Below, piece by piece: positions 29,354 to 51,820 of a stretch of 64,000 nt of DNA. The translations under genes were made by a program, and so were the position numbers. The stretch comes from Desulfomonile tiedjei DSM 6799 (GTDB taxonomy: Bacteria; Desulfobacterota; Desulfomonilia; Desulfomonilales; Desulfomonilaceae): positions 248,001 to 312,000 of the forward strand of contig NC_018025.1 in NCBI RefSeq assembly GCF_000266945.1. The letters run 5' to 3'. The notes under the pieces are model-generated. The model saw only the letters and a list, made by a program, of their open reading frames with translations. It had not been told where the DNA came from and did not search any database. The stretch's first letter is position 1, and each line of letters opens with the position of its first letter.

Positions 29354-30316
29354 ATGAAGACCCTTGTTACGGGTGGTGCCGGATTTATCGGAAGCCACAT
29401 TGTGGATGAGCTGGTCCTTCGGGGCCATGAAGTCGTTGTGTACGACAATTTGTCGTCGGGATTCCTGAGACATCTTGATAAAAGCAGGCAATCTGGATTG
29501 GTGGAATGTGTTCAGGCAGACATCCTGGAGGTTGAGCGACTATCTGCGGCAATGGAGGGCGTTGAAACCGTGTTTCACCTCGCGGCCAATGCAGACGTGC
29601 GAGGAGGAAAAGCCGATCGCTCTATCGATCTGGAACAGAATATCATTGGTACCCACCGGGTCTTGGAAGCAATGGTGAAGACCGGTGCGACAAGTATTGT
29701 TTTCACGAGTTCGGCTACGGTGTACGGCGAACCCGATGTTTTTCCGACTCCGGAAGATTACGCTCCGTTGCAGACTTCGCTGTACGGAGCATCCAAACTC
29801 GCGGCAGAGGGCATCATAGAAGCGTACTGCGAATATTTCGGAATCACGAGCCATATCTTCCGATTCGTTTCGTGGATCGGTGAACGATATTCACATGGCG
29901 TAGTATTCGATTTCATAAATAAACTCAGAGCAAATCCTCACGAGCTCGAAATTCTTGGTGACGGTAATCAGAAAAAGTCCTATCTCCATGTGCAAGACGG
30001 AGTGAAAGGGATCTTTCAGGCATTGGAAAGCTTCGGCGACTCCAAGAACGTCCTCAATCTAGGTCACACGGAATACATGAATGTTCTCAGACTTGCGGAT
30101 ATCGTGTGCGAGGAAATGGGCCTGAAAAACGTTGCATTCCGATGCACCGGCGGAATCAGAGGTTGGATCGGTGACAGCCCCTTCGTCCATCTTGACGTAT
30201 CCAAGTTGGGCTCTGCAGGATTCCGACCTGAAATCTCGATAGAAGAAGGGATACGCCGGACTGCCCGATATCTTCTGGATAACCCGTGGATTCTCGACGC
30301 GAGACGTGCCAGGTGA
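29354..30316 (+). CDS. NAD-dependent nucleotide-sugar epimerase/dehydratase
   Basis: A 320-residue extended short-chain dehydrogenase that probably epimerises or dehydrates a UDP- or GDP-sugar. The start at 29354 follows GAGGAAAGGT. NAD binding is shown by TGGAGFIGSHIVDEL, and catalysis by FTSSATVYGE and the SLYGASKLAAE motif with Tyr and Lys. GGIRGWIGDSPFVHLDVSKL near the C-terminus is a substrate-binding segment seen in GalE-like enzymes. It follows the glycosyltransferase and precedes lptG, so a role in cell-envelope glycan synthesis is likely; the exact sugar is unknown. Confidence 0.88.
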   Translation: MKTLVTGGAGFIGSHIVDELVLRGHEVVVYDNLSSGFLRHLDKSRQSGLVECVQADILEVERLSAAMEGVETVFHLAANADVRGGKADRSIDLEQNIIGTHRVLEAMVKTGATSIVFTSSATVYGEPDVFPTPEDYAPLQTSLYGASKLAAEGIIEAYCEYFGITSHIFRFVSWIGERYSHGVVFDFINKLRANPHELEILGDGNQKKSYLHVQDGVKGIFQALESFGDSKNVLNLGHTEYMNVLRLADIVCEEMGLKNVAFRCTGGIRGWIGDSPFVHLDVSKLGSAGFRPEISIEEGIRRTARYLLDNPWILDARRAR

Positions 30317-34877: not shown

Positions 34878-35768
34878 CTAGAGATCGAGCCAGGAATGAG
34901 AATACAAGGATTTGCCGAACAGCAGTCTGGCTGTTTTCACGAAATCCACTTCCCGTTTGCTCATTCCAGCGGTGTCCACTTCTTCACCGTCGAAAATGCG
35001 ACCCACGAGGTTTTCCAGTTCCATTTCTTCATCGTGAGCGATCTTGACGATCGCTTCGTCGAAGCCATCAAGAATCGCTGATGTTATGCCGCATTTCTTG
35101 AGGATACAGAGGTACACCTGATTGAGTATGTCTCTGAGTTCGTCGGGAGATCCATTGGAAACGTTGGACAGACCGCAGGTAGATTTTGAGCCCGGAGCAA
35201 GATCAGGCAACCACTGCATGAATGTCGTGCAGCCCTGCAGTTCCTGTTGCTGGGAAGAAACCGGCACCACGATGGGGTCGAACCAGATTCTTTCGAGCTC
35301 GATTCCGTGTTCGGCTGCTTGAGTCATCATGCTGTCCAAGAGGACCGCGCGTTCGTTTTCGTCTCTGGGGATGCCATCAGGACCCCACATAAGTCCAACC
35401 ATGTCACAGTCGTACTTGGTGACCAGCGGCATTTGTAGGGCCATGCGCTCGGGAGTGGCCATAATGGAATTGATGACCGCTCTTCCCTGCTTCACCTTGT
35501 AGACCTGAAGCCCTGCCTCGACGGCATCGTTGTTGGTCGTATCCAGGAAGAGAGGAAGATCCGTGACTTCCTGAACGGTTTGCACCAGCCATTGCATCAT
35601 TTCGGGACCGCCCTTGCGTGCCGGACCCAGGTTGAGATCCAGCAGATCAGCTCCTTTTTCGGTAAGCTTGATCGCCCATTCCTGGATCGGCTTGGGGTCC
35701 TTCTCCCTCATTGCATTGCCGGTGTACTTGGACATGATGTTAATGTTTTCAGCCACCACATTTATCAT
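34878..35768 (-). CDS. acsE: Methyltetrahydrofolate:corrinoid iron-sulfur protein methyltransferase (AcsE)
   Basis: A 296-residue TIM-barrel methyltransferase of the dihydropteroate-synthase-like family that moves the methyl group from methyl-H4folate to the cobalt of the corrinoid protein. The pterin-site residues are in GADLLDLNLGPA, the segment LFLDTTNNDAVEAGL is typical, and CGLSNVSNG matches the AcsE signature loop. The start follows AGGAGGTACTGTCC. It is the last gene of the CODH/ACS operon. Length agrees with the Moorella-type enzymes, a bit longer by the C-terminal helices. Confidence 0.93.
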   Translation of the reverse strand: MINVVAENINIMSKYTGNAMREKDPKPIQEWAIKLTEKGADLLDLNLGPARKGGPEMMQWLVQTVQEVTDLPLFLDTTNNDAVEAGLQVYKVKQGRAVINSIMATPERMALQMPLVTKYDCDMVGLMWGPDGIPRDENERAVLLDSMMTQAAEHGIELERIWFDPIVVPVSSQQQELQGCTTFMQWLPDLAPGSKSTCGLSNVSNGSPDELRDILNQVYLCILKKCGITSAILDGFDEAIVKIAHDEEMELENLVGRIFDGEEVDTAGMSKREVDFVKTARLLFGKSLYSHSWLDL

Positions 35769-35936: not shown

Positions 35937-37277
35937 TCAGGCATAGTTTTGACGCAGATAAGCAGGGATGTGTGCACCTTCTCTGGGACCGATGGCTACA
36001 CCCCATCCCTGAAGCTCTTCTTCCAGATCACCGCTGATGATTGCAGCCGCGCCCGGAATAATGAGCTTTCTGGTCTTGGTCTTCTCTTCGATTCCGGACT
36101 TCTTCACGAATGGACCGATAAGATCGGCAACAAACTTCCCTGCCGCCCATGCAGTGAGAACCGAAAGACCATCCGTATTGAGCACCAGGAGCCACGAAGG
36201 CACTCTGCTGGCTTCCACTTCTCCGGATACGATAAAATAGGTCAGGGAGAAATTGCTGGTGATCAACACAGGAGAGTCTTCTCCCGGGTTGTTGATGGGA
36301 TAAATGCCCTGCTCGGTCGTCATGGGGCGCTGAGGATCGGTGAAGATATTCAAGCGCTGGAGCAGCAAGGGGAACAGCAGTTCGCCTTTGAGATCGCTCA
36401 ATATGGCAATGCCGCCGTACTTGGAAATGAACGTGCCAGCTATGATTGCTTCATCAACCGGATTGTCGGCCATTTCGCACGGGAAAACGATTGTGGGGAA
36501 GCCGAGCGGTCTGTACAGTTTCTCCAGAGCCAATCTGCGGATCATAATGTTGTCCCGAACCAATTCCGCCAAGTCTCTGGAGCCGGAATCGAGGACGATA
36601 TCCTTATGACCTTTTTCCATCAACGAAGCACTCATGGTGGCCAGATCGCCCACCTTTGAGGCTTTGATTGCGACGGGAACATCGTACTCTTTGCAGAGTG
36701 CTGAAATGGCGTCAACATTGGCTGCAGTAGCCGCATAAACCAGAGGCTTATTCTTGCCGACTTCAGCCAGAGCAGCTTTGAGCGCATCCAGATTATCGGA
36801 AATCAGCACCAGAGCGGCGCCTGCATCCGAAGCTTTCTTCGCTATTGCTGCAAACTTGGTCGGATCGCCTGCGTCCTTGACTGCAATGAGATCGGGTTTC
36901 AGCGTAAGACCGACCCGCTCATATCTCAATTCCTTGAAAGCCTTAAGCTTGCCGTCCACTGATGCATCGCTTTCCGATGTTGCAATGAGGCATCCCAGGG
37001 CTGTGGGGTTGTTAAAGGTTTTCTCATGGCGGAAAAGAACCGTCTCTCCACCTGTTTTGACTGCACTATCACCGACACCGATCTGAACCGTTCTGATCGG
37101 AGGAGCAGAAGCTGATGCAAGCTTTTCTTTGGCTTCGTCGGAAACGTACGGGCACTGGGCCAGTTCAGCTTTTCCGGCTGCCAGGTTCATGGCAAAGGCG
37201 AGACACGTGGGAACTCCACATTCCCCGCAGTTTTTCTTGGGCATCATTTTGAAGATCTGAATTCCCGAAAGAGCCAT
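35937..37277 (-). CDS. acsC: Corrinoid iron-sulfur protein large subunit (AcsC)
   Basis: A 446-residue subunit that carries a [4Fe-4S] cluster and, with the small subunit, binds the cobamide that shuttles the methyl group. The N-terminal cluster motif is CGECGVPTCLAFAMNLAAGKAELAQC, written here as Cys spaced CxxCxxxxC with a fourth Cys downstream. The TIM-barrel part and the B12-contacting C-terminal domain (~320-446, SNFSLTYFIVSGEVE) follow. The Met at 37277 is preferred to the one at 37283 because the ribosome site GGAGGTGA is too close to the first. The gene is between acsB and acsE. Confidence 0.93.
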   Translation of the reverse strand: MALSGIQIFKMMPKKNCGECGVPTCLAFAMNLAAGKAELAQCPYVSDEAKEKLASASAPPIRTVQIGVGDSAVKTGGETVLFRHEKTFNNPTALGCLIATSESDASVDGKLKAFKELRYERVGLTLKPDLIAVKDAGDPTKFAAIAKKASDAGAALVLISDNLDALKAALAEVGKNKPLVYAATAANVDAISALCKEYDVPVAIKASKVGDLATMSASLMEKGHKDIVLDSGSRDLAELVRDNIMIRRLALEKLYRPLGFPTIVFPCEMADNPVDEAIIAGTFISKYGGIAILSDLKGELLFPLLLQRLNIFTDPQRPMTTEQGIYPINNPGEDSPVLITSNFSLTYFIVSGEVEASRVPSWLLVLNTDGLSVLTAWAAGKFVADLIGPFVKKSGIEEKTKTRKLIIPGAAAIISGDLEEELQGWGVAIGPREGAHIPAYLRQNYA

Positions 37278-37340
37278 AGACATTCACCTCCCTCTCGAGG
37301 CCATAAAAACCCCAAGGAAGAATCATTTCGTTATGTATAA

Positions 37341-37396: not shown

Positions 37397-39604
37397 TTAT
37401 CCGACGATGGAATCCATAGAAACAGCCGGATGCTCTTTCTCCTGAAGGAACGGATAAATCTCGTCTTCAGTCACGCCCACTGTTTCATCTGCAATCCGGT
37501 CGGACAGATTGGAAACACCTCGTTCTGCTCCAAGTCTGTCGATTTTTTCCTTCAGCATCTCTTTGAGAGCCTTCGGCATCCACACAAGACGGAGGATTCC
37601 GCCTTCTGCGGCAACGAATTTCTTCGAGCCGATATAGAGCTTGCTGTGACCGACAAAACCAGGAGTAATGTTTCCACCACCCGCGCTACCCGCCAAGGTC
37701 GTGAACTTCATACCGCATGGCGTGGGGCCTTTGTAGTCGCGGTCAACAGTCATAACTCCATTGGCAACCGGGAGCACTGCTGCGATGCACTCGAAGCAAC
37801 CGCAAGAGGTCATGGGATCTTCCATAATGGAGTATGCGTTGTACTTCACGACTTTTCCGCGGGATGCCTTCTGAACGAATTCATTAACGCCTTCCCATTG
37901 TCCTAGGCGCTCGTCGATGACTTTGCCCTTTTCAATCGGCTGGTTCGGTCCCGTGGGATTGATCTCGAATGATGCCTTGCAATCGAGCCAGTTGTATGCA
38001 CCGCAAAGGCCGGTACGTTCCGGAGTGACAACGCAAACGTGCGACGGAGCGAAACTCTGGCACAGCGTGCAAGAGTAGAAAATGGGCTCGTCTTCGTCGG
38101 TCATGCCTTCAACTCGGGCATCTCTTTTTGCGTAGACTTCTCTGGCCTGTTTCAAGAGATCGTCAACTTTGTCTTTTTCCGTGAAGACCTTCACCTGAAC
38201 CTTGTCCAGAACCGAACCGAAGTCCTGATGCAGCTTGGCATGGAGAATGGACCCGATGTGGCTCAGGCTGAAGCCTTTTTCCACTGCACCTTTTCCAATA
38301 CGCACCCAGGCTATGTCTCTCTGTCCTATATGCATCAAACCCTGAGCATAGTTGATCAAATGGTGGATCTGGCGTTCAAGAATGGGCTCGAAGTCGGACT
38401 GCATCTTACGGCCTGCAACCTCCACAAGAATACCCAGAGGCACACGGGTGCCTGCCTCGATGTCCTTCAGGTCCGGACCGATAACTTCTATCTTGCCGTC
38501 TTCGACTTCGTTCATGTCCTTCATAACGGTGAGCTCGACTGCCTGAGTCTTGCCGCCGCCAGCTTCCATGTAAATGTCTTCGCCACGGATTCGCTCACCC
38601 TCGAAGGCAGGACCGTAAGCGGTGGGAACCGGAACTTCGGTAACCGTTACTTTGAGGCCGCGCACTTCAATCGCTTTGGCAACGATTTCCTGGTGAGGAA
38701 TATTGGAAACGACGTGCTCGTATGTGCACACGCCTGTAGGAAGTATCTGAGGAATCGGGGTATCGGCTATTGTCGGGAAGCCGTAATTGATGCAACCCGC
38801 TGCAGCCGCATACCATTCGTCACTGACATCGCCCATCGCCAGGACGAACGCGAAAACACGATCTTTATTGTAGATCAGGACTTTGCGGAAATCGCCCGGC
38901 TCGATACCACCGAAGCTCAAAGCCGCACGAGTTGCAAAACCGACAGCAAAGATGGCTGAAGAAATGTCCGGACCAAAGGGTACGAGACGAGTGGGCCAAC
39001 CGATTTGAACACCGGCTTCACGGAGCTGCTGAGAGAAGGTCGTGCCATTGTGCTGTGCGGCCATGAACACGTACAGGTTCTTCTTCTGCAGTTCCAGAGC
39101 CATTTCAGCGGCTATTTCTTTTGTGGGGGCAGAGCCGACGATTGCGGCAAATCCGGGAGCGGTCCCATCCACGAATTCCACGCCGCGTTTTCTCAAAATG
39201 ACGTCATCAGCCGCGCCCAGCCACAGTTTGTCATCTGTGGGATCTTCCGCGGGGAGATAAAAATCAGGTTCTTCAAGATAACGAATGGCTTCGATGATTT
39301 CATAGTTAAAAAGAGAAGCCATACCGGCGTCCAGGATCGGTCCCAAGTACGGAAGGTGAGCCTTCTCACGGATCAGGGGAGGAATAAGCTGCTCGGAACG
39401 ATCCAGGACCAAACCTGCATCACCGAGGTTTTTCACCGGAAAACCGAGGATCCCGTAGATGACCGGCAGGTAGTAACCGGTGTTCGGGAAAGATATTTCT
39501 TTCTTCTTGCCGTACTTTTGCACGGCCATTTCGTATTTCTTCCGGGCCTTCTCATAGACTTTGTGGGCTCCGGCTACGACATTCGCTGCAATAATCTTAG
39601 ACAC
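37397..39604 (-). CDS. acsB: Acetyl-CoA synthase catalytic subunit (AcsB)
   Basis: A 735-residue enzyme that makes acetyl-CoA from methyl-corrinoid, CO and CoA at the Ni-Ni-[4Fe-4S] A cluster. The cluster Cys residues are visible in CTLCQSFAPSHVC, GLCGAYNWLDC and the Cys-Gly-Cys of SCGCFECI that binds the distal nickel. The start is a GTG at 39604 behind AGGAGGAACTAAACA. The protein has the full N-terminal domain found in bacterial AcsB (~310 residues), which binds CODH in the known complex. It follows the AcsD-CooS fusion. Confidence 0.95.
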   Translation of the reverse strand: MSKIIAANVVAGAHKVYEKARKKYEMAVQKYGKKKEISFPNTGYYLPVIYGILGFPVKNLGDAGLVLDRSEQLIPPLIREKAHLPYLGPILDAGMASLFNYEIIEAIRYLEEPDFYLPAEDPTDDKLWLGAADDVILRKRGVEFVDGTAPGFAAIVGSAPTKEIAAEMALELQKKNLYVFMAAQHNGTTFSQQLREAGVQIGWPTRLVPFGPDISSAIFAVGFATRAALSFGGIEPGDFRKVLIYNKDRVFAFVLAMGDVSDEWYAAAAGCINYGFPTIADTPIPQILPTGVCTYEHVVSNIPHQEIVAKAIEVRGLKVTVTEVPVPTAYGPAFEGERIRGEDIYMEAGGGKTQAVELTVMKDMNEVEDGKIEVIGPDLKDIEAGTRVPLGILVEVAGRKMQSDFEPILERQIHHLINYAQGLMHIGQRDIAWVRIGKGAVEKGFSLSHIGSILHAKLHQDFGSVLDKVQVKVFTEKDKVDDLLKQAREVYAKRDARVEGMTDEDEPIFYSCTLCQSFAPSHVCVVTPERTGLCGAYNWLDCKASFEINPTGPNQPIEKGKVIDERLGQWEGVNEFVQKASRGKVVKYNAYSIMEDPMTSCGCFECIAAVLPVANGVMTVDRDYKGPTPCGMKFTTLAGSAGGGNITPGFVGHSKLYIGSKKFVAAEGGILRLVWMPKALKEMLKEKIDRLGAERGVSNLSDRIADETVGVTEDEIYPFLQEKEHPAVSMDSIVG

Positions 39605-39674: not shown

Positions 39675-42600
39675 CTATCCGGCTATTTCTCTGCGCATTG
39701 CCATATCCATGAGCACGCGCTCTCTCGCTTTGTCTATGCCGAGGGCCTTTCTCTTTGCATCGATCTGAGCGATGATCCTCTTGGCCATTTCGTACGGGTC
39801 TTTTTCCACGAAATCCCAACGACCGCCATACGTCTTCTCGATATCTTTGAAGAGATAATTGGTGCAGACGTCTTCGTTGATGGTCGGGAAACCGACACCG
39901 AACAACACGTATACGCCAGAGGCGACAAAGTATTGGCCGATAGAGACGGCTTTTTCACTCATCCATTCCGGGGCGCAGCCGACTGCGGGCAGATCGGAGA
40001 TGTCGTCGCCCAGACCACCATCTCTTACCACTGCAGTTGCGGCCATGAGGATTCGGCTATTATCCACGCAGGATCCCATATGGAGGCACGGCGGGATTCC
40101 CACTGTCTCGCAGACTTCGGCAAGTCCCGCACCGCAGTATTTTGAAGCTTCCGGAGTGAGCAGACCGGCTTTTCCGAGGGCGATGGCGGAGCAACCGGTT
40201 GTGAGCACGAGCACGTCATTCTTGATAAGCTCTTTAGCAAGTTCCACGTGCAGATAATCGTTCTTTACCCGGGCATTGCCACAACCGACGATACCAGCGA
40301 GACCTCGAACACGACCGTTGATGATATTGTCGTTCAGAGGCCGATAGCTGGCTCGGAACATGCCACCCAGCATGTAACTGATGGTTTCGTGGCTGAACCC
40401 GACAACCATGTCCTGCTGCTCTGTGGGAATCGACACTTTGTTCTTGTCACGATTCGGGAAATTGTCGATAGCGTCTTTTACGATAGCTTTTGCCGTTTCG
40501 AGTCCATATCGCTCATCGTAGCTATAATGCTTGTAAGCTCCCTGCATCTTGGCAATCGGGCTGGTTGTAACCACCTGAGTGTGGAAACACTTGGCCAGCT
40601 CTGCCAATCCCTGCATGACGCACTGGACGTCCACCACGATGGCTTCGAGAGCGCCCGTGATAACTGCGATTTCCTGCTGCAGGTAATTACCGGCGACAGG
40701 AATACCGTGGCGCATCAGGATTTCATTGGAAGTACAGCAAATACCGCCCAGGCTGATACCACCGGTTGCACCTTTGCTCTTTGCATAGGCGATCATTTCC
40801 GGATCTTGCACTGCCTGAACGATGATTTCCGACAATGACGGCTCATGTCCGTGAACGATAATGTTTACGGTGTCTTCTTTCATGCAGCCGAGGTTGACTT
40901 TGCCGAGGATCGGAACCGGAGTTCCATAGAGAATATCGGAAAGATCCGTGGCGATCATGGAGCCGCCCCAACCGTCGGCCAGGGAGCATTTTGTCGCCAG
41001 GCGGATGATGTGTTCCATTTCCTGGTTCACACCCATATGGGTCATGTGCATGACTTCGACAACCGGTCTGTCGATTCCTGCCGGGATGACTCCTTCTTGT
41101 TTCCAGATCTCCTGGCGTTTCAGCGGGGCCCGTTTCACGTTCAGGATTTCGCCATCCTGCTGACCGTACTGTTGCAGAGCTCTCTTGCCGACATCAATTG
41201 CGATGTCTTTAATTTCGCGGCCTTCAGTGGGAATATCATAGTCCATTGCAATGGCGAAGAGCTTCGGAATGTCTTTGATCTGGTAATCGGGGAGTTCGCC
41301 TTTTGCGGCATGCAGGAAGGTGTGAGCGACATGGCGTCCGTGGTCGCTGTGGGCTGCTGCACCGGCGGCAACCATTCTTGCGAAGTTTCTCGCCGCGATG
41401 GTTTCAGGGGTGGCGCCGCAAAGACCGGTTCGTTTTTTTCTCTCTTCGGGCGTTTCGTCTTTGCCCTTGGGAGGAAGCACCCGGCAGGGGCCCATGTTGC
41501 AGATTTTGCAGCAGGTTCCGCCTTTACCGATGGGGCATGCGGTCATGGTCCGGGCACGATGGAAAGCAGTGGTGTAGCCTTCGCGATCCGCTTTCTTCAG
41601 TCCCTCAATCGTTGGAGTATCAATTGCGTATTGAGTCCAATCGGCAGGTCCGACTTCTTTTTTCTTGGGCGGAGGTGCCACTACGGCAGGACCTTCAGCT
41701 TTTGCAACCGGGGCATCAGCCCCCATGGCCGTCTTCAATGCCTTGAAGAAGCCGACCATTTCTTTGAGGCCTTGAACATCGTCTTTTGTCAATCCCATTA
41801 TCGCTTCCTCTTCTTCGACTGCCGGTTTCGCTGCAGCTTTGGGAGCTGCCGGCTTGGTTACAGGGGGAGCTTTCTCCTCTTTCGGTTCGGCTGCCTTGGG
41901 AGGTGCAGGTGCAGGTGCCGGTTTTTCAGCAGGTTTCGGGGCTGCCGCCGCCGGTTTTGCTGCTGCGGGTTCGGCCTTGGGTGCCGCTGCTTCGATAAGC
42001 TTTAAATCCACTCCCATTGCATCCAGGGTGGTCTCCACCATAATACTGGAAATATATTTGCGAATATGTTCGAGAGTCTTTGGATGTCTCAGGATCAGAA
42101 GATCCGAGCCAGCCTGGAGAGCACTCAATGCAGTGATGGCTTCCAGGTTGATCCCGCGAGTTCCTGCCTCGCCCAATTTGGGATCCGCATCCGTAGAAAG
42201 TTTGGCTTCTTTGGTTTTCCACACTTCCTCGGCGACATTGTTAATTATGGGATACTGGAGCTTGTCGTCGTTCTGGGTCAGAGCTGCCTGTCTGATCCTC
42301 TCCATAATGGAATAACAGTACTCCATACCGTAGCCCACACCACCTGTAGTGGGATCCACGAGTATTTTGTCGTTGGGAACGCCGAGGTTCTCCAGAAGAA
42401 TGTTCAACTGCTTGGCTAAGTTGATGTCTATCGGCGTATTTGCGGCTACCGTATGCTTGTATGCGATTGCCGCCGCTCCGACCTGCTTGTAGTTGCCTTC
42501 TGTTACCGGGCCAATGACCACATTCAAACCGGCGCATGCTTCCGCCACCGCTTTGAGCACTTCCGTATTCTTGACGTCGCTTGACGTGCCCCACACGATC

Positions 42601-42974
42601 AGCGGAACATTAATGGCTTCCGCCACTTCCTTAGCCACTTTCGCAGCATGCTCGGCTGAAAGATTTTTTCCGTTGGGATCTGTGCCGGTAAGCCAAAGGC
42701 ACACGGCATCCGCTTTGTACTCGTCGACGCACTTCTTGGCCCAAGCCACTGGATCTCCCAGCACGTCTTTGAACGGAGCCAATGCCTCGGCAGCCCACTC
42801 TTCGGGCACTATATCCAAAACCTGCAGCGCTAGTTTCGGCGCATTGGGAGTTTTTCCTTCAAAGGAGTAGAAATTGTAAGCGGTTTCGCCGCCTACGGTT
42901 ATCTCGCAACCCGGCTTCCCAATTTTTATTTCACGTATTTTTCCCGAATATTTTACTTTTGGCAGTTCAGCCAT
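39675..42974 (-). CDS. acsD/cooS: Fusion of corrinoid protein small subunit (AcsD) and carbon monoxide dehydrogenase (CooS/AcsA)
   Basis: One uninterrupted frame of 1099 residues. Residues 1-~328 are the AcsD/CdhD delta subunit (TIM barrel; VDPTTGGVGYGMEYCYSIMER). Residues ~329-392 are a Pro/Ala/Lys/Glu linker, 393-419 a helical island (MGLTKDDVQGLKEMVGFFK), 420-440 a second linker. From ~445 to the end is a complete nickel CO dehydrogenase: B/D-cluster motif CPIGKGGTCCKICNMGPC, C-cluster ligands in HMTHMGVNQ, GGICCTSNE, VQCVMQ, GCGNARVK, TTGCSAIA and HMGSCVDN. The start follows AAGGAAGGTGGCAA. No frameshift is needed. CODH and AcsD are normally separate genes, so this ties CO2 reduction to the methyl-carrying protein. 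An internal ATG with a ribosome site at 41798 could give a separate CooS. Confidence 0.93.
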   Translation of the reverse strand: MAELPKVKYSGKIREIKIGKPGCEITVGGETAYNFYSFEGKTPNAPKLALQVLDIVPEEWAAEALAPFKDVLGDPVAWAKKCVDEYKADAVCLWLTGTDPNGKNLSAEHAAKVAKEVAEAINVPLIVWGTSSDVKNTEVLKAVAEACAGLNVVIGPVTEGNYKQVGAAAIAYKHTVAANTPIDINLAKQLNILLENLGVPNDKILVDPTTGGVGYGMEYCYSIMERIRQAALTQNDDKLQYPIINNVAEEVWKTKEAKLSTDADPKLGEAGTRGINLEAITALSALQAGSDLLILRHPKTLEHIRKYISSIMVETTLDAMGVDLKLIEAAAPKAEPAAAKPAAAAPKPAEKPAPAPAPPKAAEPKEEKAPPVTKPAAPKAAAKPAVEEEEAIMGLTKDDVQGLKEMVGFFKALKTAMGADAPVAKAEGPAVVAPPPKKKEVGPADWTQYAIDTPTIEGLKKADREGYTTAFHRARTMTACPIGKGGTCCKICNMGPCRVLPPKGKDETPEERKKRTGLCGATPETIAARNFARMVAAGAAAHSDHGRHVAHTFLHAAKGELPDYQIKDIPKLFAIAMDYDIPTEGREIKDIAIDVGKRALQQYGQQDGEILNVKRAPLKRQEIWKQEGVIPAGIDRPVVEVMHMTHMGVNQEMEHIIRLATKCSLADGWGGSMIATDLSDILYGTPVPILGKVNLGCMKEDTVNIIVHGHEPSLSEIIVQAVQDPEMIAYAKSKGATGGISLGGICCTSNEILMRHGIPVAGNYLQQEIAVITGALEAIVVDVQCVMQGLAELAKCFHTQVVTTSPIAKMQGAYKHYSYDERYGLETAKAIVKDAIDNFPNRDKNKVSIPTEQQDMVVGFSHETISYMLGGMFRASYRPLNDNIINGRVRGLAGIVGCGNARVKNDYLHVELAKELIKNDVLVLTTGCSAIALGKAGLLTPEASKYCGAGLAEVCETVGIPPCLHMGSCVDNSRILMAATAVVRDGGLGDDISDLPAVGCAPEWMSEKAVSIGQYFVASGVYVLFGVGFPTINEDVCTNYLFKDIEKTYGGRWDFVEKDPYEMAKRIIAQIDAKRKALGIDKARERVLMDMAMRREIAG

Positions 42975-43028: not shown

Positions 43029-43262
43029 TCAGGCGGGATTTTTCCGTTTCTCGCTTCCGAACCACTCTTTCGAGTAGAAATACCGCTCAGCCGAGGTGAG
43101 ATATCTCATCACGGGTTGGCTCTGCTCACCAACGTTGACTGCATCGATATTCTTTCGCCATTGGTAACGATCTTCATCGGCACCGACAGCATACGTAGGG
43201 AGAAGAATTTTCACCTTCTGCCCGTCAAACCTTTCTTTTTCTTCGTACTTGTCTCCGGCCAT
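43029..43262 (-). CDS. Small hypothetical protein heading the CODH/ACS operon
   Basis: A 77-residue protein behind a very good ribosome site (GAGAGGAGTGAATCT). It is hydrophilic and charged (MAGDKYEEKERFDG; YQWRKNIDAVNVG; YFYSKEWFGSEKRK) and contains no Cys, so it is not a metal chaperone of the ferredoxin type. It lies 54 bases upstream of the AcsD-CooS start on the same strand, so it is probably the first cistron of the acs operon. I do not recognise its family. A structural or regulatory role for CODH/ACS is inferred from position alone. Confidence 0.7.
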   Translation of the reverse strand: MAGDKYEEKERFDGQKVKILLPTYAVGADEDRYQWRKNIDAVNVGEQSQPVMRYLTSAERYFYSKEWFGSEKRKNPA

Positions 43263-45652: not shown

Positions 45653-46720
45653 TTAGCTGCTGTAATCCATTAACTGAGCTTTTATCAAGGTGAGATCCTC
45701 TACATCCGGCGGAAAGGGATAATTCCTGATGTCGGGACCGGGTTTTTCGTTCCCGTACGGACGATTGCAGGCAACTTTTCCGTCAGGTCCGGGGCAGCCT
45801 GACGTCTGAAATGGCGTGCCGCTGTCGATCACCTGCTGCATCTTTGCTTCCGGGATGCCGAAATCAATGATTCGTCCGCATTCATCAAATCTCATGAGAT
45901 CCAGTGTCGAAACATCAGTATCAATCAACCAGCGGGCCAGTTGAATCCGCCTGTATGTCGCAGCTTTCGGAACCGGGTGTTTCTCCATGCGGGAACCTCG
46001 TTCGGGAAAGAAACAAAAGAGATGAGTGAATCCCCCCATATTCCTCGCTCTGGATATGGCTTCCACCATCTGCCGTTCCGTTTCTCCCAGCCCACAGATA
46101 AGGTGTACACCGGCCTTGTCTCTGCCGAAAACACTCACGCTCTTTTCATAGATATGCCAGTACTTCTCCCACGAATGCGGTCCATGCACCGGTTTGCCTC
46201 GGAGTTGCTCGAAAATTTCCGGGATTGCCGCATCAATGGCTACTCCCACCCGATCTGCACCCGCGTGTTTCATTGCTCGTAAATCGTCTTCCTGCAACAG
46301 GGTGGGAGAAATGAGCAGAGAAACAGCCTTGCCGGTTTCCCGGGCGATTCGTCTGCAAACGGTCAAAACGTCTGCTTTACAGCGCGGATGGGTAATCATG
46401 GAAATACACACGCGACTCACGTGGGATGGCGCATTCCGGATTCCTTCAATGACGTCCGACGTTGCATAGGATTTCCAGGGGACTCTTATGAAATTGGTAC
46501 CACGAGGAGCATGCTTCTCGGCGGCCAGTCCGCAGAATGCACAGTTGGCTTTGCAGCCTCCCTGGTATGTCAAGAGAAGATTGATGCACCCGAGCTTTGC
46601 ATTGCGATAAAACCAACCGGGGACGAATCCCAACGTCATCGCAGCAGCCAAAGAGAGCCTCACATGATCCGGGCTTTCCTGAAATTGTTCGGGTTCTGCA
46701 ACACTGTGGCAGGTATTCAT
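45653..46720 (-). CDS. Radical-SAM sulfur-insertion protein of the LipS1/LipS2 lipoyl synthase pair (BioB-like)
   Basis: A 355-residue radical-SAM enzyme. The [4Fe-4S]-AdoMet motif is CKANCAFCGLA. Further Cys residues near the C-terminus (SGCPGPDGKVACNRPYG) probably hold the second cluster that donates sulfur. The pattern fits one of the two proteins that together replace LipA in Thermococcus and many bacteria. I cannot say with certainty which number (LipS1 or LipS2) it is; LipS2 is my guess. The Met at 46720 overlaps the stop codon of the gene before it (ATGA). It is the last gene of the lipoate operon. A biotin-synthase annotation would be an easy mistake. Confidence 0.8.
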   Translation of the reverse strand: MNTCHSVAEPEQFQESPDHVRLSLAAAMTLGFVPGWFYRNAKLGCINLLLTYQGGCKANCAFCGLAAEKHAPRGTNFIRVPWKSYATSDVIEGIRNAPSHVSRVCISMITHPRCKADVLTVCRRIARETGKAVSLLISPTLLQEDDLRAMKHAGADRVGVAIDAAIPEIFEQLRGKPVHGPHSWEKYWHIYEKSVSVFGRDKAGVHLICGLGETERQMVEAISRARNMGGFTHLFCFFPERGSRMEKHPVPKAATYRRIQLARWLIDTDVSTLDLMRFDECGRIIDFGIPEAKMQQVIDSGTPFQTSGCPGPDGKVACNRPYGNEKPGPDIRNYPFPPDVEDLTLIKAQLMDYSS

Positions 46721-47685
46721 TGGAACCGATCTCCTGATATGTATGTTCCGAGCGAACAGCAAGTCTCACTATAGCAGATTTCAAGCCCGCGTGATTCAGC
46801 CTCTCTCAAGCCCTGTTCGGATGGGAGCGCGAGAGAATTGATGCCCGCTGCAACTGCCAAGACATCCAATGTTTTGCGGTACTTTCCACGAGGGCGAGCG
46901 CACCCGAGAGACGCTTGAAGCAAAGGCAATTCCAGACGAGCCTTGGCCAAAAACAGCGCAACTTCCAGAGGCGCTGGAGGTTCGACGAACTTCATGGGCG
47001 TTTCGGATGAAGGCATTATTACAACCAGCACGTATTTGCTGAGCGGATAATCCCTCAGCATTTCGAGTGCTCGATCTTCGCCGCGTTTCGCTCCGTAATG
47101 CAAACCGTACAAGATGTGCGGCACTATTTCCAGACCTGCAAAGGCAAGAGCGTCCATTGTTTTGCGAATGGTCCGGACTCCGTCATCAAGGTGATAGACT
47201 TCCCGAACGGTACCATCGTCGCCGATTACATCCACCAGCGCTTGATCCACTCTCGATTGTTTGAGAGCAACGGCAGTGTCCGTGTCAACCTGTCCTGCGT
47301 GAACCGTAATTACAAGATCCGTTTCTCGCTTCAGTCTTGAGATTGCCGGGATGAATTCTCGCCAGGGAAGCCTTCCAAGACTGTCACAGCCTCCTGTCAC
47401 GAGTATTCCGTGGTCGCCTCTGGCAAAGGCCGCTCTGCCATATTCAACGAGGCTTTCCGGAGTCGATGCGTGTGCCATTGTCCGAAGGAGAAAACCTTTG
47501 CAGTGCTCACACCCCAGATCGCATGTGCCTCCAGTGATAGAAACAGCCCTGTAACGGCCTCGCCTTCCGTTCACAACAAACATTCCCGGGACGTGTACGG
47601 AGAGCGAATATCCGTGAGCCGCACGCGATAGATCCCAGGCTGCACGCAGGAGGTCTCGCTGGTCGGGATTCAACTCAGTCTGCAT
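46717..47685 (-). CDS. Second radical-SAM protein of the LipS1/LipS2 lipoyl synthase pair
   Basis: A 322-residue radical-SAM protein with the cluster motif CDLGCEHCKG. Downstream Cys residues (LGCARPRGKYRK and YSETCC at the end) probably bind an auxiliary iron-sulfur cluster. The sequence GMFVVNGRRGRYRAVSITGGTC is typical of this group. The Met at 47685 overlaps the preceding gene by 11 bases; a longer start at 47715 is less likely. The tight coupling to the sister radical-SAM gene supports joint action on protein-bound octanoyl groups, one enzyme per sulfur. LipS1 is my guess. Confidence 0.8.
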   Translation of the reverse strand: MQTELNPDQRDLLRAAWDLSRAAHGYSLSVHVPGMFVVNGRRGRYRAVSITGGTCDLGCEHCKGFLLRTMAHASTPESLVEYGRAAFARGDHGILVTGGCDSLGRLPWREFIPAISRLKRETDLVITVHAGQVDTDTAVALKQSRVDQALVDVIGDDGTVREVYHLDDGVRTIRKTMDALAFAGLEIVPHILYGLHYGAKRGEDRALEMLRDYPLSKYVLVVIMPSSETPMKFVEPPAPLEVALFLAKARLELPLLQASLGCARPRGKYRKTLDVLAVAAGINSLALPSEQGLREAESRGLEICYSETCCSLGTYISGDRFQ

Positions 47686-48814
47686 GACTCTGCCCGACAC
47701 GATCGTTCGAAACATTTCTTATCCGCTGCCTGTAGCCTTTGAAAGCGATCCAGGTCTGCTCGCAGAGTTTTACATAGTCCGTATCGGTTCCTGTTTTCCA
47801 GGAACCCATGATAGTTCTCTTGGAAACCGCATGATCGATCACGCCCTTGTATCGGCCTCTCACTTCGGCTTCGTATTCTCTGATGGGCAGGTCGCTTGAG
47901 TTTTTGATTGCAGCCGAAGCTGCACGTCCCGCAAGATCGCCGGAGAACACTGCCTGAGGTATCCCTGCACCGGTTACGGGGTGAGTCAAGCCGGCAGCAT
48001 CTCCGCAGAAAATAACATTCTCCACGCACAACGAAGGTCGCAATCCTGACACCGGGATAATGCCTCCATATCGGGCGAGAATCCCTTCGCGGATCATACC
48101 CGATGTAATGAGAGCGCTTGCCAGGCTCCGGAGCAGGTCACGGACATTCGTATCAGGACGTGCGCCAATGCCCAGATTCGCGACAATTCCCTTGGGAAAC
48201 AGCCAGCCGTAACCGCCCGAGAATGCCTTATCAAGGAAGATAATGGTTTTCCCTATCGACTCAGCAAGAGGCACCTCAACCTGGAGTCCTTTCAAGAATT
48301 GAAAGCTTGGCAGTCCAAGAAGAGACCCTACGGACGACAGCGGTCCATCTGCAGCAATAACAATTCTCGGGAAAAAGGAAATCTCGGACTCCGGCGCTCT
48401 CGCAATCCAATAATCGTTTTTGTGTCGAATCAAGCGAGTTCCGGAGAACACACGGGCTCCGGATTCTGATGCTTTCCGGGCCAAATCACGGTCGAATCGG
48501 ACCCGATCTATCATGTGTCCCGGGGACACAGTTGTCATCGCAGGAATGCAGAGATCCGGGCCGAATTCGGACAGTCCGGTGAGAATCCGGGTTTCCATGG
48601 AGTCGACAGATTGGATGATGCAGGATTTGTCGAGATGAAATTCGCCGAAGAGTCGTGAGGGCACGAATTCGCCGCAATGAGGTTGCTCGCCGATGCGCAT
48701 TTTTGCGTCGATGAGAACGGTATCGACACCCATTTCAGCCGCGGCTCTGGCAGCGGAAGACCCGGCCGGGCCTGCTCCGACCACGAGAACGTCACATGCG
48801 ATCGTGCGGCCCAT
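47675..48814 (-). CDS. FAD-dependent oxidoreductase of the geranylgeranyl reductase family (LipT-like)
   Basis: A 379-residue flavoprotein. The dinucleotide fold is VVGAGPAGSSAARAAAEMG, the GGR-type segment is PHCGEFVPSRLF, and the second FAD motif is FCGDAAGLTHPVTGAGI. Genes of this kind lie between or beside lipS1 and lipS2 in other bacteria, and the product, LipT, is thought to pass electrons to the radical-SAM pair; the same job is likely here. The Met at 48814 follows GAGGCTTGTAC. It overlaps both neighbours. A true prenyl reductase is the alternative but has no context support. Confidence 0.82.
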   Translation of the reverse strand: MGRTIACDVLVVGAGPAGSSAARAAAEMGVDTVLIDAKMRIGEQPHCGEFVPSRLFGEFHLDKSCIIQSVDSMETRILTGLSEFGPDLCIPAMTTVSPGHMIDRVRFDRDLARKASESGARVFSGTRLIRHKNDYWIARAPESEISFFPRIVIAADGPLSSVGSLLGLPSFQFLKGLQVEVPLAESIGKTIIFLDKAFSGGYGWLFPKGIVANLGIGARPDTNVRDLLRSLASALITSGMIREGILARYGGIIPVSGLRPSLCVENVIFCGDAAGLTHPVTGAGIPQAVFSGDLAGRAASAAIKNSSDLPIREYEAEVRGRYKGVIDHAVSKRTIMGSWKTGTDTDYVKLCEQTWIAFKGYRQRIRNVSNDRVGQSHAD

Positions 48815-50369
48815 GTACAAGCCTCAGTGCTTTTTGCAGCAATTCCATATTCAGGGTTGTCTTGTTCTCGAAATCTCCTCTATAGGCCCTCGTGCCTTTG
48901 CCGAGATCGTAGCAGGTGGTGCAATCCAAATTTACGAGGAGACCGCGAACCCCGGTATCCTGCATTTCTCGCTGGTGCTTCGAGTAGAATGCTTCGCAGC
49001 ACGATCCCACGTACATTGCGTTCCCGTCCGTGCACTCGTTGCTGAGGACGTGCATCAAGTGCTCGAAACTTTGAATGGTTATGGGGAACATGCCGAAAGC
49101 TCGTGCAAGATCGAAGCATGCTCCGATTTCGCAATCACCGCATTCATCGCATCCGGAAATTTGCCTGTATGCGCATTCGGGACTTTTGGAACAATAGGGA
49201 AGCAGAAGCCATTTGGCCGCGAAACTTTGCAGCTCGTGGGGAGCCAGATTTACCAGAAAAAGATCGTTCACTTCATTCCTGGTCAGATCATGACCTGCGA
49301 TCAACAACCGGTCCGCTGCAGAAGAAATCGCACATGCCATTTCCTCCGGCCGCATGCCGAAAATGAACCCGTCAGAATGGAGAAAAAACTTCAGGACCGC
49401 CTGTTCCAGGGCAGATCGTTCGATCCGCTCTCCTATTAACGCAGCCTCGAGATCATGGATCAAGCGTCCGGGAATGGCGAAGAAATCTCCTACAATAAGC
49501 GCCTGTTTGATTCTTTTTCCTCCGGGAGCAGGCCAGAGATGCACTCTCAATGTCCCGGCATCGGTCTGGGTAATGGAACGAAGAGGCTCGCCTTCAGCAG
49601 GGGGACGGGAACGAGAATCGATCCATGCATTGCTTTGAAAGTACGGGAGTTGCTCTTCAAGTTTCTTCTGCTCTCTCTCTGTAAGTCCGTCCGGAACGAG
49701 GTCCATTCCGAGATCGTTCGCAAAAGATTGCACCAGGACACCTTTGATCGTTTCCAGAGACGGCATTGGTGAGAGCAGGTCCGAAAGAAAACAGATCCGT
49801 TCCATGAGCGATTCAATTTCCCGCTTCTTCAGCTTTTCAACGGGAACTCTGAGACTGCGCAGAAAAAGCTCTACTTCATTGTTTACAAGCAGCGTGCCCT
49901 GGAACATGAAACCATTACCCAGGGTAACTCCACCTGTTCCGGAGACCTTTCGGCCATTTACCTCGATATCGTTTCGAGGCCGGAACGCCGCCGGAACGCC
50001 AAGGTGAGAAATACCTGCCGCCGCTGCCGAGCAGATTCTATGAAGTATGGACTCATACGAACCTCGAAAAGGATCGTCGCCGCGACGTCCGAAGATTTCC
50101 CAGCCGAGTCCGGATTCTTGAAACAAAATGCCGCCACCGCCTGTGATGCGGCGATTCACGTGGATTCCTTCCGCGTGGCAGTATTCCAGCCTGATTTCCA
50201 GATTCACGTCCTGATGGTATCCCACCAGTGCAGCCGCAGGCTTGAATTGCAGGAACCGCAGCGTAGGCGGGCTCCAACCTTCGGCTATTTCCTCGAGTAG
50301 GATGTTATCCAAAGCCATATTTTCTGCAGCAGAAATGCAGCCTGTATCAAGAAGTCTGAATATGCTCAC
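48792..50369 (-). CDS. Lipoate-protein ligase fused to a Cys-rich DUF116 domain
   Basis: A 525-residue two-domain protein. Residues 1-~245 form a biotin/lipoate ligase (BPL/LplA) domain: RRITGGGGILFQESG, catalytic Lys in VNGRKVSGTGG. A linker domain with LplA C-terminal features follows. The last ~190 residues are rich in Cys (CSKSPECAYRQISGCDECGDC; VGSCCEAF; DCTTCYDLG), matching DUF116, a likely iron-sulfur domain. The GTG at 50369 is preferred because GGAG precedes it by five bases. It is directly behind lpd and overlaps the flavoprotein gene. It probably attaches octanoate or lipoate to the apo-protein on which the radical-SAM pair acts. The role of DUF116 is not known. Confidence 0.85.
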   Translation of the reverse strand: MSIFRLLDTGCISAAENMALDNILLEEIAEGWSPPTLRFLQFKPAAALVGYHQDVNLEIRLEYCHAEGIHVNRRITGGGGILFQESGLGWEIFGRRGDDPFRGSYESILHRICSAAAAGISHLGVPAAFRPRNDIEVNGRKVSGTGGVTLGNGFMFQGTLLVNNEVELFLRSLRVPVEKLKKREIESLMERICFLSDLLSPMPSLETIKGVLVQSFANDLGMDLVPDGLTEREQKKLEEQLPYFQSNAWIDSRSRPPAEGEPLRSITQTDAGTLRVHLWPAPGGKRIKQALIVGDFFAIPGRLIHDLEAALIGERIERSALEQAVLKFFLHSDGFIFGMRPEEMACAISSAADRLLIAGHDLTRNEVNDLFLVNLAPHELQSFAAKWLLLPYCSKSPECAYRQISGCDECGDCEIGACFDLARAFGMFPITIQSFEHLMHVLSNECTDGNAMYVGSCCEAFYSKHQREMQDTGVRGLLVNLDCTTCYDLGKGTRAYRGDFENKTTLNMELLQKALRLVHGPHDRM

Positions 50370-50386
50370 CTTGGCTCCGCAATAGA

Positions 50387-51820
50387 TCAATTTCGCTTTT
50401 CCGAAACTTGCTGTGGAATTCCAAACGTCTTCACCCGTGAAGCAGCGTGGAGGGAACCCCCCAACAGTCCCAGCGCTGTTTCCCGCAATGCCTCGGAAAG
50501 GGTGGGATGTGCATGGATGGTGTCAGCCAGATCTTTTGCCGATAACCGCATTCTTACTGCCAGCGTCAACTCCGCTATCAGCTCCGACGCCTCCGGACCC
50601 AGAATATGTGCACCGATAAGCGAACCCGATGTGGAATCTTCCAGAAGCTTCACCCATCCCCGGGAATCCCCCATAGCTTGAGCTTTTCCATTGGAAGAAA
50701 AAGAAAACATGCTCGTACGGAAACTGAGATCGCTCGCTATTGCCTGCTCCTCGGTGAGACCGGCCCACGCGATCTGTGGATGAGTAAATACACAGCTCGG
50801 GACGACACGATCTTCAGCAACCGTATCCATCCCTGCGATATTCTCTGCAGCAATTTCACCATGATAGTAGGCCACATGAGCCAGCATTTTTCGTCCCGTG
50901 ACATCTCCCACTGCATAGATTCCCTCTGTTGAGGTCCGAAGTGTCCGATCCACGAGAACCGATCCTTTTTCCGTTCTTATCCCGAGAGCGTCGAGTCCGA
51001 GCCCTGCGGTATTGGGAGCCCGACCTGCTGCAATGAGAACCAGATCCGCATCGATTGTCTTTTCTTTTGATTTCTTTTCGTAAATAACACGAAGCGAGCT
51101 TCCCGATTGTTGGAACGCGTCGATGCGAGCACCCGTTTCGACGGTTATTCGCTGGCCGGGCAAAAGACTGGCGAAACGCTTTGCCATTTCGGCATCGACT
51201 TCAGAGAGGATTCTGTCGAGAGCCTCGAGAATGGTGACTTTGCTACCCAACGGAGCGAATATCGCCGCAAACTCCTGACCGATTATTCCGCCGCCCACGA
51301 TCACGAGTCGCTGTGGCACTTGCCTCATGGAGAGGATTTCACGGGTACCGACAATTCCCGGTAAATCAATGCCGGAGATAGGCAATTTAGTCTGTCGCGA
51401 GCCTGTGGCAAGCACGAGAGAGCGAGCAGTGAATTGCCGCCCATCATCCATTGTCATGACACCGGGTTCCGGTACGGATGCTCTGCCTTGGATAATTTCC
51501 ACTCCACCTGCACGAAGCAGTTTTTCCAGGTTGGAGACCATGCCGTTAACAATCGTGTCTTTGCGGTCTACCATCCGGTCAAAGTGTATTTCTGGAAGAG
51601 CAGGTATGATGCCGTCTTGAACGGCCCTCTTTGCCCAGCGAAGACCGTCGAGATCCGCGAGCAAAGATTTTGTAGGAATACAGCCGCGGTTCAGACAAAC
51701 GCCTCCGATCCTTTCCTGTTCCGCAAGGATCACGGTCAGACCCAACTGGCGAGCCCGAAGGGCGGTCATATAACCGCCCGGACCTCCGCCCAGAATACCC
51801 ATATCATATTGCACGGTCAT
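50387..51820 (-). CDS. lpdA: Dihydrolipoamide dehydrogenase (E3)
   Basis: A 477-residue FAD-dependent disulphide oxidoreductase that reoxidises dihydrolipoamide with NAD. FAD binding is at LGGGPGGYMTALRARQLG, the redox disulphide in GGVCLNRGCIPTKS, NAD binding at IVGGGIIGQEFAAIF, and the catalytic His-Glu pair in AHPTLSEALRE. The start follows AGGACGTATC. It is the first gene of the lipoate operon and 31 bases downstream of the Skp/OmpH gene. No dehydrogenase E1/E2 or glycine-cleavage genes are in the window, so its partner complex is elsewhere. Confidence 0.94.
   Translation of the reverse strand: MTVQYDMGILGGGPGGYMTALRARQLGLTVILAEQERIGGVCLNRGCIPTKSLLADLDGLRWAKRAVQDGIIPALPEIHFDRMVDRKDTIVNGMVSNLEKLLRAGGVEIIQGRASVPEPGVMTMDDGRQFTARSLVLATGSRQTKLPISGIDLPGIVGTREILSMRQVPQRLVIVGGGIIGQEFAAIFAPLGSKVTILEALDRILSEVDAEMAKRFASLLPGQRITVETGARIDAFQQSGSSLRVIYEKKSKEKTIDADLVLIAAGRAPNTAGLGLDALGIRTEKGSVLVDRTLRTSTEGIYAVGDVTGRKMLAHVAYYHGEIAAENIAGMDTVAEDRVVPSCVFTHPQIAWAGLTEEQAIASDLSFRTSMFSFSSNGKAQAMGDSRGWVKLLEDSTSGSLIGAHILGPEASELIAELTLAVRMRLSAKDLADTIHAHPTLSEALRETALGLLGGSLHAASRVKTFGIPQQVSEKRN

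Follow-up and report, generated by a model that had tools for sequence, protein, structure and literature searches.

In bacterial CODH/ACS complexes, CO is made at the CO dehydrogenase (CODH) and passes through a tunnel to the acetyl-CoA synthase AcsB, and the methyl group comes from the corrinoid/Fe-S protein (CFeSP), which consists of AcsC and AcsD. CFeSP is described as a standalone protein in acetogens, but as a stably bound component of the complex in archaea (PMC11474084). In a published AlphaFold3 model, the small subunit of CFeSP is located on the N-terminal domain of ACS (PMC12289521). CODH/ACS is considered to rank among the oldest enzymes of carbon fixation, and a central question is how the corrinoid protein meets the bacterial CODH/ACS and whether it remains attached.

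The window analyzed here is the whole stretch of 64,000 nucleotides from the genome of Desulfomonile tiedjei DSM 6799. One of its genes is a real in-frame fusion of AcsD with a Ni-CODH of the CooS type. Like the acsABCDE operons of Moorella thermoacetica and Clostridium autoethanogenum, the locus encodes five activities in neighbouring genes with the same domain families. In the latter two bacteria, AcsD forms a chain of its own apart from CODH, and CFeSP is described as standalone (PMC11474084), whereas in the window the two form one polypeptide with an arm and a helix. The archaeal ACDS/Cdh complex also keeps CFeSP together with CODH and ACS in one assembly, as is proposed below for the fusion; however, it is a non-covalent complex of 2.2 MDa (PMC11474084) with a CdhA-type CODH and an epsilon subunit, whereas the CODH of the window is of the CooS type and its link is covalent. 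The presence of CODH and a CFeSP subunit in one chain makes the locus a variant of the bacterial CODH/ACS operon and not an ordinary member.

Ala/Pro linkers and small helical docking domains are typical of swinging-arm enzymes, such as the E2 component of pyruvate dehydrogenase and the docking domains of PKS. As in the window, a carrier domain, a disordered A/P-rich linker, a small helix and a catalytic domain are combined in them. No sequence relation was found or is claimed, and the island of the window has a single helix of ~19 residues.

A literature search found no paper describing the fusion, and the words "fusion" and "fused" are not used in a 2026 study of the pathway in Desulfobacterota (PMC12827605). 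According to a 2019 survey (PMC6344411), fused Ni-CODHs are classified in its supplement. The fusion modifies a known enzyme complex in a way that appears to be new, although it may already be listed in that supplement.

The acsD-cooS gene and its operon

The minus strand from position 42974 to position 39675 is one frame of 1099 codons without interruption, which begins with ATG; the plus-strand translation of the same region is broken by stops. The earlier note had placed AcsD and CooS in a single frame at 39675..42974 without stating the strand, and had estimated the mass of the protein at ~117 kDa; the frame was confirmed, and the computed mass is 118.0 kDa. The domain borders were slightly revised. 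The AcsD domain, i.e., the small subunit of CFeSP, comprises residues 1–312 (42039..42974, minus strand) and not 1–328, and the CooS domain comprises residues 444–1099 (39678..41645, minus strand) and not 445–1099. Neither a stop nor a frameshift is present between residues 328 and 445.

According to the Pfam analysis, the protein contains CdhD (residues 15–256, E-value 7.5e-45) and Prismane/CODH (residues 487–1060, E-value 6e-162) domains. Residues 459–1080 of the CooS half score above the curated cut-off of TIGR01702 (586.6 bits vs 478), a CooS-type profile; the CdhA profile TIGR00314 matches the protein only weakly. For the AcsD half, residues 3–312 exceed the cut-off of the subfamily NF003376 (396 bits vs 280), and the score with PF03599 is 153.7 (cut-off 24.8); with NF040759 (WLP_AcsD) this half is under the cut-off (347 vs 430). 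The PDB matches were 4djd_D, 2h9a_B and 9fzy_E for the AcsD half, and the CODH of 6ytt/9fzy for the CooS half.

Every ligand of the D-, B- and C-clusters checked in the CooS half, together with the catalytic Lys, is intact, in agreement with the earlier note. These residues (C480, C488, C489, C492, C497, C519, H710, C746/C747, C785, C898, C928, C969 and K1008) are invariant in seven fused homologues. The D-cluster has the type II spacing C-x7-CC, matching PMC6344411. Judging by sequence, both halves of the protein are apparently active.

The two domains are joined by linker 1, rich in Pro, Ala, Lys and Glu (residues 313–392; 41799..42038; 75% P+A+K+E), a helical island (residues 393–416; 41727..41798) and linker 2 (residues 417–443; 41646..41726; 65% P+A+K+E), all on the minus strand. 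3D modeling using AlphaFold2 with 70 aligned rows gave a mean pLDDT of 85.3. Both domains are mostly above 90, the linkers are mostly below 50 (residues 330–394 and 414–435), which indicates predicted disorder between two folded domains, and a helix is modelled at residues 397–415 with a pLDDT of about 53–66. Foldseek analysis of the modelled CODH half confirmed the CODH fold (TMt about 0.95–0.97 for the best matches among solved CODHs). Within the family, pairwise identity is 85% for AcsD, 88% for CooS and 68% for the island, with a drop to 40% and 49% in the linkers; thus, the domains and the island are conserved and the linker sequence drifts, but its composition stays. The composition, the identity drop and the modelled helix bear out the description of two Pro/Ala/Lys-rich linkers with a helical island between them.

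Downstream of the fusion, on the same strand, lie acsB, then acsC, then an acsE-like gene; the first two had been recognized earlier as neighbours and were supported by NCBIfam matches. The acsB gene (37397..39604) encodes a full-length acetyl-CoA synthase of 735 aa (NF040764, 1104 bits), in which the A-cluster cysteine motifs were found by alignment to 7zkj_B. The acsC gene (35937..37283; NF003195, 589 bits; PF04060 Fe-S motif) encodes the large CFeSP subunit, so that the operon supplies the partner of AcsD with its Fe-S and corrinoid-binding domains. The acsE-like methyltransferase gene (34878..35768) matches PF00809 and is under the NCBIfam cut-offs. No Rfam elements were found at window positions 30000–52000.

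A conserved 77-aa ORF, provisionally named AcsX (43029..43262, minus strand), is located upstream of the fusion and has the C-terminal motif RYFYSKEWFGSEKRKNPA; Pfam and NCBIfam searches gave no match for it. It precedes acsD in the CODH/ACS operons of several phyla, among them Desulfobacterota, Chloroflexota and Spirochaetota, and was found beside 35 of 48 short-AcsD loci and beside all AcsD-CooS loci, some loci being the same genome counted twice. Among the loci compared, a separate AcsX ORF is absent beside operonic long AcsD, MetF-AcsD and AcsB-AcsD genes; in five long-AcsD loci, AcsX is the C-terminal domain of AcsD.

The source genome (G000) comprises 6,500,104 bases and a second contig of ~26.9 kb. 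The fusion is its only Ni-CODH, the other Prismane match being hydroxylamine reductase; therefore, it must serve any Ni-CODH reaction of the organism.

Elsewhere in the window, a cluster at 45653–50390 (minus strand) combines a pair of radical-SAM-like genes with a gene resembling flavin reductase and a gene for a lipoate ligase-like protein whose C-terminal part is Cys-rich; a dihydrolipoamide dehydrogenase-like gene (50387–51820) adjoins the latter. These genes may represent a lipoate assembly cluster of the LipS1/LipS2 type.

Distribution of the fusion and of the helical island

A search for the AcsD plus CODH architecture detected intact fusions in six further genomes of Desulfomonilaceae (G003, G004, G005, G008, G009 and G011; open frames of 1128–1150 aa), i.e., in seven together with G000, and also in G067, which belongs to another family. 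In G007, G012 and G015, the contig breaks off inside the linker, up to which point the frame contains no stop; the G002 locus is too short for a fusion call. Named relatives ("uncultured Desulfomonile" and "Desulfomonilaceae") show an AcsD identity of 81–87%. AcsD is present in all eight high-quality genomes of the family screen, the fused copy being the only AcsD found in G004, G008 and G009 (96–99% complete).

The sole family member seen with separate acsD and cooS genes is G006 (100% complete), which branches first in the family CooS tree (support 76). Its separate genes may either be ancestral or have arisen by the splitting of a fusion. Since acsD and cooS are unfused in G006 and in most Desulfobacterota, function does not depend on the fusion.

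AcsD was found in 193 of 297 Desulfobacterota genomes, and AcsD-CooS fusions among the matches listed were those of G000, G005 and G067. Other phyla were sampled through the best 80 AcsD loci of named genomes from several phyla; just one of these loci has the fusion, and it belongs to a Desulfomonilaceae record. The earlier statement that the two subunits are encoded by separate genes in known operons therefore holds for all loci sampled except those of Desulfomonilaceae and G067. Several loci, including those of G050, G220, G110 and G061, looked fusion-like by the length of the open frame but proved to have separate genes, and open frame alone was not trusted as a sign of fusion.

A profile of the island run over the G000 genome gave only two matches: the fusion itself and another AcsD, which is unfused (C1:5962688, 452 aa). 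The latter is 82% identical over the AcsD domain and ends C-terminally with a related helix. Consequently, the fused AcsD need not be the sole methyl carrier in G000. Unfused AcsD with such a helix is also present in G005, G006, G007 and G012. In G006, one island stands at the start of the separate CooS (MATLSREEIEGL...) and another at the end of AcsD. Island likeness is 75% among fused, 60% among unfused proteins and 49% between the two classes. In G005, DNA identity between the fused (L062:3925-7362) and unfused (L062:17943-19268) AcsD copies is 95.8% over 1111 nt; protein identity is 100% over 312 residues and falls to 42–60% in the linker and island. Judging from this pair, the AcsD part is either homogenised by concerted evolution or recently copied, and the tails are distinct. 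That the two helices stay distinct under these circumstances argues for a role of the helix.

In the region L003:6944-11047, far from the acs operon, the unfused AcsD gene of G000 forms a divergent pair with a probable [FeFe]-hydrogenase gene, with HydE/F/G-like maturation genes nearby (names from sequence reading).

Possible role of the fusion

We consider it fairly probable that the fusion covalently tethers CFeSP to CODH and thus corresponds, in bacteria, to the stable complex of archaea. This reading is based on the conservation of the fusion in the family, on its being the sole AcsD found in G004, G008 and G009, and on its being the sole Ni-CODH in G000. The full-length fusion protein would be the main product. 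AcsD would combine with AcsC to form CFeSP, and the CooS half would dimerise and bind AcsB in the way known from the CODH/ACS complexes of other bacteria. The predicted disordered arm, ~130 residues in G000 and longer in relatives, with the short helix inside it, would link the methyl carrier to the CO-supplying enzyme. Through the arm, CFeSP would be more concentrated around AcsB and yet free to swing to AcsE. The island helix may be a docking or pairing element, and the tether may speed or channel methyl transfer. The unfused AcsD with its paralogous terminal helix probably supplies extra CFeSP able to join the same assembly. The published model with the small subunit at the N-terminal domain of ACS (PMC12289521) is compatible with a tether there. 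Tethering is a supported but incomplete reading and appears to be the likeliest role of the fusion; if so, a covalent tether appears to have evolved in bacteria for a step that elsewhere is thought to rely on loose encounters. Since the carrier and CODH are naturally linked in an apparently culturable species, both could be purified as one unit and the effect of tethering on methyl transfer could be measured.

Ribosomes may, in addition, start at an internal ATG (M393; 41796..41798, minus strand), which would give two products, the AcsD-CooS fusion and a free helix-CooS protein of 76.5 kDa, whose ratio would set the number of CODH subunits with a methyl carrier. We regard this as a tentative possibility. 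M393 is invariant in fused genes and is homologous to the true cooS start of G006, which has a stop just upstream; the site may also be a relic of a former cooS start. An SD-like GAGG (41807..41810, minus strand) is located 8 nt upstream of this ATG. All 10 genes compared have GAG at codon -4, or GGG if Gly has replaced Glu, which gives GAGG or GGGG, whereas GAG is used uniformly in only one of 28 columns with conserved Glu. However, Glu-rich codons yield SD-like sequences by default, shuffling of synonymous codons gave p=0.11 for the SD energy, and the genes compared are related and not independent. The mRNA near M393 is weakly structured (71st–99th percentile), and the GGAGG forms in G005, G007, G012 and G015 score like the native SD of acsB. 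These features are suggestive only, and both live internal initiation and a relic are possible.

An extended scheme, which we consider rather doubtful, would combine three proteins: AcsD-helix-CooS, the internally started helix-CooS and the AcsD-helix encoded by the second gene. The homologous, paralogue-specific helices would pair and thereby set the number of methyl carriers per CODH/ACS core, and G006, with a helix on both separated ends, would represent the non-covalent form.

It is quite unlikely that the fusion arose by neutral read-through and has no functional effect. Because acsD is adjacent to cooS in most outgroups, loss of one stop between the neighbouring genes would suffice, and G006 manages with unfused genes. 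Nevertheless, the family has retained the fusion, the island has stayed conserved although the linkers on both sides change fast, and AcsD fusions recur with three partners.

Long disordered linkers rich in Pro, Ala and Lys are often protease-sensitive, and the linkers of the fusion, with their pLDDT below 50, are of this kind. The protein might be cut there and work as two ordinary subunits, but this is very unlikely: the sequence indicates no dedicated site, and the linker sequence varies, yet the composition and the island are kept. An assembly or sequencing artefact has a negligible probability; some relatives are MAG contigs, in which misassembly is possible, but conservation of the same fusion in independently assembled genomes at 82–87% identity excludes chance or assembly error and makes an effect of misassembly unlikely.

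AcsD fusions elsewhere in Desulfobacterota

The tether reading can be compared with other AcsD fusions in the phylum. The G067 gene is a true AcsD-CooS fusion, with an island sequence different from that of Desulfomonilaceae; a search of its linker found no SD-led start. Its CooS groups with that of the unfused G072 (support 92), in a clade different from the Desulfomonilaceae fusions, which makes a second origin likely, and the G067 fusion is probably independent. The tree topology is against a single origin of both fusions, which was not rejected in the AU test (p=0.087).

In three genomes of a sister family in the same class, AcsB is followed by a linker with a long helical island and by AcsD, in frames of 1169–1197 aa (L090:5164-8721, minus strand; L091:1861-5367, minus strand; L092:5656-9246, plus strand). 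Eleven other loci (L190-L200, e.g., L190:4381-7656, minus strand) encode MetF (methylene-THF reductase) joined to AcsD by linkers with coiled-coil-like stretches and sometimes TPR repeats; PF02219 was confirmed in the three examined. In the AcsD tree, the AcsB-AcsD and MetF-AcsD groups each form a clade with a support of 100. As in the window, AcsD is joined to a pathway neighbour via a linker with a helical island; here, however, the partner is acetyl-CoA synthase or methylene-THF reductase, and AcsD is C-terminal. A kinship of the Desulfomonilaceae island to the MetF-AcsD islands was considered (hhalign probability 52, few sequences) and is not claimed.

With fusions to CooS, AcsB and MetF in one phylum, AcsD is a repeatedly tethered subunit, which suggests selection in Desulfobacterota for keeping AcsD in place. 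These fusions also offer ready-made linker designs for C1 biotechnology.

AcsD tails of 170–225 aa were detected in many more loci. The long tails of L076, L077, L079, L083-L085 and L089 contain KAEAEAK repeats and are probably single alpha-helices, and some long tails end in conserved short motifs, e.g., YILRSLxRWRLRGEGVLKK.
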